Positions 27,880 to 30,498 of a DNA stretch of 64,000 nt are shown piece after piece. The notes below the pieces were generated by a model. It searched no databases, was not told where the DNA came from, and saw only the letters and a list, made by a program, of their open reading frames with translations. Every line of letters begins with the position of its first letter. The first letter of the stretch is position 1. The stretch comes from Haloplanus rubicundus (GTDB taxonomy: Archaea > Halobacteriota > Halobacteria > Halobacteriales > Haloferacaceae), in NCBI RefSeq assembly GCF_003342675.1, contig NZ_CP031148.1, forward strand, positions 2,604,001-2,668,000, written 5' to 3'. The translations under genes and the position numbers were made by a program.

Positions 27880-28108
27880 GGGTTTGTCTGTGTTCGCGTG
27901 CCGTTCGTGCGACGGTCTCCGCGACCGTCAGGTTCACCACGTAGTCGTCCACGGTCGACTGCAACCCGCCGACGGTGTCGCGTTCGACCGTCGTGCGGAC
28001 GCCGTCGTCCGTCACGACCGTCGACATCGACGGCGTGTCGTCCGGCCGGAGTGCGGCCGCGACAGTCGCCGCGTCGTCGTGGGTCGTCTCGATACAGGCG
28101 CGTTTCAT
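27872..28108 (-). CDS. pcc1: KEOPS complex subunit Pcc1
   Basis: The 78-residue protein has the Pcc1 pattern: short strands, then the C-terminal helix (GGLQSTVDDYVVNLTVAETVA, in parts) used for dimerisation. KEOPS makes the t6A37 modification of ANN-decoding tRNAs, and Pcc1 bridges two complexes. It overlaps the RecJ-like gene by 4 bp upstream and eS1 by 8 bp downstream, the conserved archaeal gene order. Confidence 0.93.
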   Translation of the reverse strand: MKRACIETTHDDAATVAAALRPDDTPSMSTVVTDDGVRTTVERDTVGGLQSTVDDYVVNLTVAETVARTAREHRQTHE

Positions 28109-29316
28109 AGCGCCTCCCTGAACGCCGTGATGAACCGCGATACCTCTCCGTCCGCGTCGAACCGCGCCGTCGCCCGTCGGGCGTCGCCGGCGCTCGTTCC
28201 GTCCCCGTCGACCGACTGCACCGCCTCGCGGGTCGCGTCGGCGAGTCGAGCGTCGTCGACGCTCGCCGCGGCCGCGGCAGTAGCCGCGCCGTCACTTCCC
28301 GCGGCAGTAGCCGCGCCGTCACTTCCCGCGGCAGTAGCCGCGCCCCCGACGACCAACACGACCGGCTCCGGCGACTGAAAGTCACGACAGAGTCGTGCGA
28401 CCGTCCCGAGTCGCCCGGGATCGGCCTCGTCGACGCGCGCGACGAAGACGCCGTCGTACCGGCCCGTCGTCGCCGTGGTCAGCGCCTCGTGGACCGCGCG
28501 GGCGTGGCCGCGCCACGCGTCGAGGGTGGCCGTCACCGGCCCGCCGTCGCGGATGGCGAGGGCGACGCCCGTTCCCGGCCGCTCGCGAGCGACCGCGTCC
28601 AGCGCGTCGCCGAAGCCCTCTATCGTCGCGACCCGGGCGTCGGGCGTCGCGTGCGGGCGCAATGCCCGCTCGACTGCCTCGGTCGCCCGCGCCGACGACG
28701 CCGTCGCCTCGATGGCCAGCCACGACGCGAGTCGGCGGCGGTCCTCCTCGGTCGGGTCCGACGGCAGATCGAGCCTCGACAGCGCTTCCCGCGCCATCTC
28801 GGGATCGCCCGAGACCGGCGCCGAGACGAGCGTCGAGTGTGCCAGTCCGTCCGCGAGATCCGGCGTCGGCGTCGCCACCCCCGGCCGGCGCTCGACCGCC
28901 GTCCGCTCGCGCGCCGCGTCGAGCAGCACCGCCGCGTCGCCCGAATCGAGCGGCCGATCCGCCGTCGCGACGCCGGCGAGCGCGAGCGTCGGGTCGGGGT
29001 CGACACCGAGTTCGCGCGCCGCCGCCGCGGCGACGAGACTCGCTGGCTCGGCGCCCGCGAGTGCCACGTCGCCGCCCGCCGCGCCGACGCCGACGACGAG
29101 GTCGTCGCCCTCGCCCGGCGTCAGGTTGGGGATCGGATCGACGCGCACCTGGAAGGGGGTCGAACGCTCCCGGCACGCCCGCGCGAGGACGCCGCTGGCG
29201 GCCAGCGCGTCGCCGTCGGCGGCCGCGACGACCCGAACGAACGGGGCCTCGCGGAGCGCCGCGGCTATCTCGCCGGCGTCGGCGGCATCCTCGGGGACTG
29301 CGGGCGCGGTCGACAT
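28105..29316 (-). CDS. RecJ/Cdc45-like DHH-family protein with degenerate active site
   Basis: From ATG 29316 the product is 403 residues. The position between uS15 and Pcc1 is that of archaeal RecJ/GAN-like proteins. The first motif reads VAAADGDALAAS in place of the catalytic HxDxDG, and no DHH triplet is seen, so nuclease activity is doubtful. It may act structurally, as Cdc45 does in CMG. A 27-bp in-frame tandem repeat near its C-terminus adds an Ala/Gly-rich loop. It overlaps pcc1 by 4 bp. The family assignment rests on synteny and a partial motif. Confidence 0.8.
   Translation of the reverse strand: MSTAPAVPEDAADAGEIAAALREAPFVRVVAAADGDALAASGVLARACRERSTPFQVRVDPIPNLTPGEGDDLVVGVGAAGGDVALAGAEPASLVAAAAARELGVDPDPTLALAGVATADRPLDSGDAAVLLDAARERTAVERRPGVATPTPDLADGLAHSTLVSAPVSGDPEMAREALSRLDLPSDPTEEDRRRLASWLAIEATASSARATEAVERALRPHATPDARVATIEGFGDALDAVARERPGTGVALAIRDGGPVTATLDAWRGHARAVHEALTTATTGRYDGVFVARVDEADPGRLGTVARLCRDFQSPEPVVLVVGGAATAAGSDGAATAAGSDGAATAAAAASVDDARLADATREAVQSVDGDGTSAGDARRATARFDADGEVSRFITAFREAL
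28274..28345. repeat. 27-bp tandem repeat inside the RecJ-like gene
   Basis: Two identical 27-base units (28274-28300, 28301-28327) and about two thirds of a third follow without gap; each starts GCGGCAGTAGCCGCGCC. The unit is a multiple of three and encodes a nine-residue Ala/Gly/Ser/Asp repeat, so the frame is kept. Confidence 0.9.
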
Positions 29317-29317
29317 C

Positions 29318-29782
29318 CTATTCGAGTAGCTCGACGGCGACGTCGTAGCTGTAGCGGAAGTCCTCGTCGAGGGCGTCGCCACGGTAGTAGTTGACCAGGC
29401 GACGGATCTTCGACTCGGTGTTCTGGAGCGCGCGCTTGTTCTGGTGGTCCTGCGGGTTCGCCTCCATGTGCTCGCGCAGGCGGATCGCCCGCTGCATCAG
29501 GTTGCGCAGGTCCGACGGCAGGTCGCCGTCGGCGTCGTTGTCCTCCAGAATCTCCGTGAGCTTCTTCCCCGTCGCCAGCTTCACGTCGGGGATCGGCGTG
29601 CCCTTCACGCCCTCGTCACGGAGCTTCATCCCGATGACGCTCGGGTCGTGGCCCTGTTCGGCGAGTTCGACCACGCGCTCCTCGATCGCATCCGTGTCTA
29701 CGTCGCTCCACTCCGGGGGTTCGTCTGCCACCGGCTTGTCCGATCCGGACGAGCCACGGCGGCGGGTGTGCATTCGTGCCAT
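29318..29782 (-). CDS. rps15: ribosomal protein uS15
   Basis: The 154-residue archaeal uS15 starts at ATG 29782 (MARMHTRRRG) and has the N-terminal extension of archaeal/eukaryal S15 before the four-helix core (RAIRLREHMEANPQDHQNKR, KIRRLVNYYRG). It binds 16S rRNA at the central domain. Its stop is 1 bp from the start of the RecJ-like gene, so it heads the uS15-RecJ-Pcc1-eS1 operon. A leader of about 115 nt with a hairpin lies upstream. Confidence 0.96.
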   Translation of the reverse strand: MARMHTRRRGSSGSDKPVADEPPEWSDVDTDAIEERVVELAEQGHDPSVIGMKLRDEGVKGTPIPDVKLATGKKLTEILEDNDADGDLPSDLRNLMQRAIRLREHMEANPQDHQNKRALQNTESKIRRLVNYYRGDALDEDFRYSYDVAVELLE

Positions 29783-30023: not shown

Positions 30024-30095
30024 GGGCTCGTAGATCAGGGGTAGATCACTCCCTTGGCATGGGAGAGGCCCCGGGTTCAAATCCCGGCGAGTCCA
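30024..30095 (+). tRNA. tRNA-Ala (GGC anticodon)
   Basis: A 72-base cloverleaf: acceptor GGGCTCG pairs with CGAGTCC (one G-U), the anticodon stem CTCCC/GGGAG encloses TTGGCAT with anticodon GGC, and the T arm reads CCGGGTTCAAATCCCGG. The discriminator is A95; CCA is not encoded. No intron is seen. Its 3' end is repeated downstream. Confidence 0.95.
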
Positions 30096-30344
30096 TCGGA
30101 ACGACCGAGCCGTGGCGAGGGAGTGAGAATGGTCGAGCCGGGATTTTAATCAGGGAAGTCGCAGCGCCGAGCGGAGCGAGGCGACCGTCTTCCCGTGGTT
30201 CAGAATCCCGGCGAGTCCATCGGAACGACCGAGCCGTGGCGAGGGAGTGAGAATGGTCGAGCCGGGATTTTAATCAGGGAAGTCGCAGCGCCGAGCGGAG
30301 CGAGGCGACCGTCTTCCCGTGGTTCAGAATCCCGGCGAGTCCAT
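30081..30344 (+). repeat. 124-bp tandem repeat built on the tRNA-Ala 3' end
   Basis: Two units of 124 bases (30081-30204 and 30205-30328), identical as far as read, are followed by a third partial start at 30329. Each unit begins with the last 15 bases of the tRNA (ATCCCGGCGAGTCCA). Units two and three are preceded by GGTTCAGA, a variant of the T-arm GGTTCAA. The repeat therefore copies the tRNA tail, the usual attachment site for archaeal integrases. Confidence 0.9.
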
Positions 30345-30498
30345 TTCCTTTCGCTCACTTCGTTCGCTCCAGTCAATGGACTCGCCTGAGTCCCCCTCGC
30401 TCCCTGCGGTCGCTCGCGGGACTCCCGGCGAGTCCGCTCGACTCATTCCGATCGGTTCCGTCCCTCGTCGCTCTCGGTCGTCTTACTGGGAGCAACGG
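30096..30498. other. gene-free region after tRNA-Ala with att-like sequences
   Basis: No gene is supported. Besides the tandem repeat it holds a 12-bp inverted copy of the tRNA end (GGCGAGTCCATT 30334-30345; AATGGACTCGCC 30375-30386) and a further direct copy CCCGGCGAGTCC at 30424-30435. The region looks like the scar of repeated integration and excision events; no integrase gene is present. Confidence 0.7.

Follow-up and report, generated by a model that had tools for sequence, protein, structure and literature searches.

Hairpin units carrying copies of the neighbouring tRNA tail behind tRNA genes of Halobacteria

Overall, after analyzing a 64-kb stretch of DNA, hereafter the window, we found that the short repeat behind its tRNA-Ala(GGC) gene belongs to a family of hairpin units that is spread through the Halobacteria. 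Each unit combines a spacer with a hairpin, ends in a copied tail of the host tRNA and lies in the orientation of the tRNA; the outer arms of the hairpin are a T-arm copy and the complement of the T arm. The arms and tails track each tRNA, and the tip of the hairpin is common to different tRNAs and varies between species. The conserved fold, the variable number of tandem copies and the tips common to different tRNAs lead us to favour a gene-less cassette at the tRNA tail. Tentatively, and at somewhat less than an even chance, we propose that the units are non-autonomous, folding, att-like cassettes that are anchored there. The window comes from a haloarchaeal genome of 3.77 Mb (G000), and its locus behind tRNA-Ala(GGC) is laid out as follows.

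30024..30095, + strand: tRNA-Ala(GGC) gene (ARAGORN, Rfam RF00005)
30076..30095, + strand: source of the tail copies, the final 20 nt of tRNA-Ala, TTCAAATCCCGGCGAGTCCA
30096..30219, + strand: unit 1 (124 bp), made of spacer, hairpin and tail copy
30137..30213 (end at 30212 or 30213), + strand: hairpin of unit 1, from the fold and covariance model R1
30199..30219, + strand: tail copy 2, with one extra base (TTCA-G-AATCC)
30220..30343, + strand: unit 2, the same as unit 1 throughout the shared 124-bp period
30261..30336, + strand: hairpin of unit 2, identical to that of unit 1 (R1 match at 30265-30331)
30323..30343, + strand: tail copy 3
30344..30435, + strand: a second kind of module, made of a spacer and a hairpin at 30378-30435

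The original prediction had described two 124-bp units with a third begun, each starting with the tRNA tail, and this description was borne out. Tandem Repeats Finder reported a period of 124 with 2.2 copies at 30070-30344 (score 536), and 141 bases from 30080 onwards are identical at an offset of 124, with 0 mismatches, which corresponds to two units and the start of a third. The tail AATCCCGGCGAGTCCA occurs at 30080, 30204 and 30328, and no other copy was found on either strand of the window with one mismatch allowed. The variant T arm that had been noticed before copies two and three is a one-base insertion in the T loop (TTCAGAATCC, compared with TTCAAATCC in the tRNA). The arms of the second-module hairpin are the acceptor-strand tail at 30424-30435 (CCCGGCGAGTCC), which had been correctly read as a further direct copy, and an inverted copy of it. 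The inverted copy exists as predicted, but it extends over 30377-30386 rather than 30375-30386.

The 5′ arm of the unit 1 hairpin complements the T loop and T stem, and the hairpin carries the conserved tip AGTCGCAG...ACCGTCT. The segment 30137-30213 folds at -45.6 kcal/mol (z -5.85); since none of 200 shuffled sequences folded as well, chance is excluded. The second-module hairpin gave a fold z of -4.73, again with 0/200 shuffles as good. R1 matched unit 1 at 30141-30207 with 83.9 bits, and in a search of the locus against Rfam 15 the tRNA alone scored above the gathering scores. None of the 13 integrase (PF00589) matches of G000 lies in the window, in agreement with the earlier remark that no integrase is nearby. 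Related species have one unit at the same tRNA, and in the relative G005 a module like the second kind stands directly after tRNA-Ala and again after a unit. Elsewhere in the window, a perfect 27-bp repeat (2.7 copies, 28272-28344) was observed within a minus-strand ORF (28105-29382), where it encodes repeated TAAGSDGAA residues.

The units are tied to tRNA genes throughout the genome. A search of G000 with R1 yielded 24 matches with E below 0.05, and for 20 of these an intact tRNA gene of the same strand ends no more than about 250 bp upstream, the tRNA-Pro(CGG) case being called by ARAGORN only. The other four follow a partial tRNA-Gly (one) or tRNA-tail copies without a gene (three). At L408 (G000:C2, about 741.3 kb), the tRNA-Pro(CGG) called by ARAGORN was missed in the RF00005 genome search. 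Among the 29 top loci from the whole class, 27 follow a tRNA of the same strand, the hairpin lying 32 to 390 bp downstream of it, and the remaining two (L216 and L217) follow integrase genes. The tandem arrays of G000 have unit periods of 94 to 137 bp, with no gene in the units.

The tie extends to the tail of each tRNA. In a census independent of the model, 12-nt tail copies were sought within 800 bp of each tRNA with one mismatch allowed. Copies of a tRNA's own tail were found downstream of 18 of 46 tRNAs in G000, 13 of 46 in G057 and 19 of 42 in G093, and upstream of 0, 1 and 0 tRNAs, respectively; the tail of a foreign tRNA was found in 9/1844, 4/1858 and 10/1558 tests. In the outgroup G316, five of 32 tRNAs were scored downstream and five of 32 upstream, and the downstream cases that were listed proved to be tandem whole tRNAs or mis-parsed short tails. 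A biased set of 199 tRNA loci contained 144 units, at tRNAs of 18 named amino acids and one unassigned tRNA. Where the T-loop 9-mer differs from TTCAAATCC, the copy carries the version of its host in 40 of 51 units. Most tRNAs of each genome are without an array, and isoacceptors with and without one coexist. At L218 (G097), tRNA-Thr(GGT) is followed by a unit with an Asp-type tail, a possible candidate for a move to a foreign tRNA. At L004 (G000:C2, about 27.3 kb), a second, partial tRNA-Phe lies near tRNA-Phe and keeps part of the anticodon arm; a hairpin stands at its variable loop/T-arm junction, and the T-loop tail follows.

Among 60 relatives searched, the hairpin also occurs behind Asp, Leu, Ile, Ser, Gly, Cys, Arg and Phe tRNAs, and nearly all of these hairpins end in the tail of their own tRNA. 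The structure was assessed on an alignment of 30 hairpins. In the named structure, 89.3% of cells were paired compared with 82.0% in shuffles, and 43 cells were changed on both sides compared with 14.6 in shuffles. Further pair types were no more numerous than in shuffles (22 versus 22.3), and all slid registers of the stem structure were far worse paired than the named one. An extra base in the copied T loop recurs at the same site (TTCA-N-AATCC) in 13 of 106 hairpins, which belong to different tRNAs; such a base would protrude from the hairpin as a bulge and leave the copy unfit to serve as a T loop.

R1 matched 283 of 292 Halobacteria genomes and 73 of 77 genera with E of 0.001 or better, no more than 17 sites being scored in each genome. 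A sample drawn from across the phylum gave matches in 41 of 246 genomes, all labelled as the same family or order. The genomes of this sample without a match comprise 18 listed outside Halobacteria, two listed in the class and 185 further ones that carry no kinship listing. A phage collection gave no match, and three haloarchaeal plasmid records matched, two of which list no RNA genes in their tables. The repeats had been taken for a local scar of several integration or slippage events, which does not agree with like units at many tRNAs across the class, with arms matched to the tRNA. The suggestion of a small RNA or minimal element for the non-tRNA part came close, in that this part is a defined covarying hairpin family. 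Its absence behind other tRNAs and in relatives had been raised as a possible refutation; it is present in both, and the feature stands. No description of tRNA-tail hairpin units was found in the open-access literature, most subscription journals lying outside that scope. We rate these hairpins as new among short palindromic repeats, their unusual trait being arms that fit the neighbouring tRNA.

The tip and the arms follow different rules. When the tip was searched by itself as a pattern, 122 sites were found in named genomes, nine bacterial and 113 haloarchaeal. T-loop arms are present at 60 of the 113 haloarchaeal sites, and a tRNA precedes 52 of these 60, three of the eight others sitting at the edge of the fetched stretch; among the 53 sites without T-loop arms, none is preceded by a tRNA. 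Therefore, the tip is a module, and the outer arms go with the site that it occupies. G005 has nearly the same hairpin, with an unchanged tip, at both tRNA-Ala and tRNA-Asp; the spacers and tails differ between the two. An inverted duplication of the whole tail was considered and is not supported: complementarity past the T loop reaches 0.66 and 0.42 at the first two T-stem bases, compared with 0.43 and 0.25 in controls, and is near background thereafter, so that it stops after one or two T-stem bases.

The armless tip hairpin (GAAGTCGCAGC...GACCGTCTTC) was observed at L270, L255, L253, L312 and other loci of named Halorubrum and relatives. At several Halorubrum loci it lies within a larger repeated intergenic element whose common blocks include GTGGGACTCAAAGGGGCAG and GGCTGGGGCTTTGGAGGTGTTC. 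The loci of the armless tip hairpin that were scanned gave no Rfam match.

One tRNA-Met locus, defined by its conserved downstream gene, was inspected in nine species; G001, where no tRNA-Met was listed for the locus, L420 and L433, which are without that gene, and repeat fetches were left out. In seven of the nine species, a hairpin ends in a tail copy, with the tail decayed in one further species and no hairpin in another. G000 has two units, G002 has one and a truncated one, and G005, G009, G011, G007 and G003 have one each, with different tips; G006 has one unit with a decayed tail, and G010 has none. On visual inspection, the Met T arm is matched by the 5′ arm in G000, G002, G005, G009 and G011, whereas the fit is poorer in G003, G006 and G007. 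No exact pair of empty and filled sites, one unit apart with otherwise identical flanks, was found, the unit-less G010 being too diverged.

Some arrays are displaced from their tRNA in the company of an integrase. At 136106 of G000, an orphan hairpin follows an integrase gene; the hairpin is preceded by a tail copy similar to the one belonging to a tRNA-Met(CAT) gene that lies 13 kb upstream. At L216 and L217, the order is integrase, partial tail, spacer, hairpin and tail, the integrase match scoring below the Pfam curated cut-off at L216 and above it at L217. tRNA-Gly(TCC) has an integrase close behind it, and 20 kb away there is a partial tRNA-Gly with a hairpin; for an element at tRNA-Arg(GCG), a search for the distal tail gave none. 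The displaced arrays at 136106, L216 and L217 are most simply read as the result of integration at the tRNA tail, in which the incoming element shifted an array already present to its far end. The earlier statement that integrases use these tRNA ends is supported. A separate region of G000 (C2:2138274-2158085; L359 and L360) contains the tRNA-Arg(TCG) tail, spacer, hairpin and tail three times in 20 kb, with similar sequence after each copy. Since no PF00589 match was found in this 2138-2158 kb region, we do not claim it as an integrative element.

We compared the units with known systems. Tyrosine integrases that target tRNA genes duplicate att, leaving direct copies of the tRNA 3′ end, and their elements can stand in tandem at one locus, as reviewed for archaea (PMC8371274). 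The haloarchaeal units resemble this arrangement in that an intact tRNA is followed by a directly oriented copy of its 3′ end. However, they are short and gene-less, and each contains a hairpin that is conserved, covaries and includes the complement of the T arm. At the window locus, no element with an integrase lies between the ends of the 124-bp units; therefore, they are not strict att duplications. Casposons and Cas1-type insertions at tRNA 3′ ends show a repeat-unit-repeat order with the tRNA end as the repeat. The haloarchaeal units share this order, but the 124-bp unit is too small for cas1 or polB, and the tail repeat is about 20 nt. As for the features of DNA transposons, the duplicated tail is present and terminal inverted repeats are not evident by eye.

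The attC sites of integrons are imperfect palindromes in a direct array behind one anchor, with structure more conserved than sequence, and some copies have a stray extra base in one arm. The haloarchaeal arrays agree with attC and CALIN arrays in their imperfect palindromes of conserved fold and in the stray base in one arm of some hairpins, whereas their arms, unlike those of attC, copy the host tRNA. The attC core is R′/R″ GTTRRRY / RYYYAAC; the haloarchaeal arms GTTCAAA and TTTGAAC fit this core at five of seven positions each and thus depart from it, so the units are not attC sites. REP/BIME and MITE-type repeats are short, gene-less, multi-copy palindromes, as are the haloarchaeal units. 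In contrast to such repeats, the copies with T-loop arms are bound to tRNA genes, with arms that fit each tRNA, and the intergenic dispersal of MITE and REP repeats was not seen (a tRNA precedes 52/60 armed sites and 20/24 matches in G000).

For the cassette that we favour, we propose that the unit would work as a folded single strand and substrate of a recombinase and that it would be gained, moved or lost through recombination at the tRNA tail. The likeliest candidate enzyme would be a tRNA-directed tyrosine recombinase of resident elements. Tandem copies would then be expanded and homogenised by homologous exchange, which in these polyploid cells would even out the copies. As a by-product, each unit would provide a spare tRNA-tail landing site, and elements could therefore insert with the tRNA gene itself untouched. 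This proposal draws on the own-tail copies downstream and rarely upstream of their tRNA, the covarying stems, the host's T-loop version in the copies, the tRNAs in front of armed and not of unarmed tips, and the near-identical hairpins at the Ala and Asp tRNAs of G005. It draws also on Met-locus tips that vary among species with most arms fitting Met, the foreign Asp-type tail behind tRNA-Thr, and the displaced arrays that adjoin integrase genes (G000 136106, L216 and L217). However, even the closest integrases lie a long way from the window, the displaced arrays can be explained as bystanders of ordinary tRNA integration, and the presence of the unit in most species at the Met locus looks more like a maintained feature than like sporadic insertion. 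A stronger version, which we consider quite unlikely, is an integron-like system on the tRNA genes of Halobacteria, in which the T arm and its complement form the folded single-strand site, the tip is recognised, and a putative recombinase adds, swaps or loses units.

Other explanations account for part of the same evidence. The units may be transcribed 3′ trailers of tRNAs, with the hairpin acting in termination, in 3′ processing or as a stable small RNA. This is a doubtful but serious alternative, consistent with the position of the hairpins on the tRNA strand close downstream at the 27 class-wide loci, with the covariation, and with a sense strand that folds better than the antisense strand in 81 of 103 hairpins. 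However, the occurrence is mosaic, with most tRNAs lacking an array and isoacceptors differing, and the mid and inner stems show no excess of G-U (13 G-U, 19 A-C). The outer arm has 36 G-U compared with 10 A-C, a count confounded by alternative pairing registers and one-base deletions; given these registers and the lack of bias in the mid and inner stems, we set it aside as evidence for RNA. Somewhat less probable is a functionless satellite of mutational origin, in which unequal exchange or slippage gives rise to the tail copies and template switching between arms keeps the palindromes near-perfect. The identity of the tandem units, arms that track the local T arm, and stems whose two sides change together between Watson-Crick pairs, G-U or A-C intermediates being few, are all expected of it, but it leaves unexplained the recurrence of the tip at many tRNAs and in a tRNA-free setting, as well as a class-wide spread with absence from the listed genomes outside the class.

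We regard it as improbable that the units are ordinary att scars, that is, remnants of separate integrations into tRNA genes. Integrases that target tRNAs do leave tail copies, and integrases and displaced arrays co-occur; nevertheless, unrelated elements would not share one covarying, host-matched hairpin throughout the class. That the second unit is a duplicated contig end produced in assembly is barely credible: both units are indeed identical, but other genomes have single as well as multiple units, and so do other tRNAs of G000, with other periods.

Mobile DNA often enters archaeal genomes at tRNA genes. Hairpins that rebuild tRNA ends behind many tRNA genes throughout a class would alter the interpretation of integration sites, 3′ flanks of tRNAs and partial tRNA genes in haloarchaea. 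The 15 tRNA genes of G000 that carry units according to the model offer natural replicates for studying how the match between a repeat and its host gene is maintained. Recombination of the units in folded single-strand form, if it occurs, would add a second example in nature to that of integrons.
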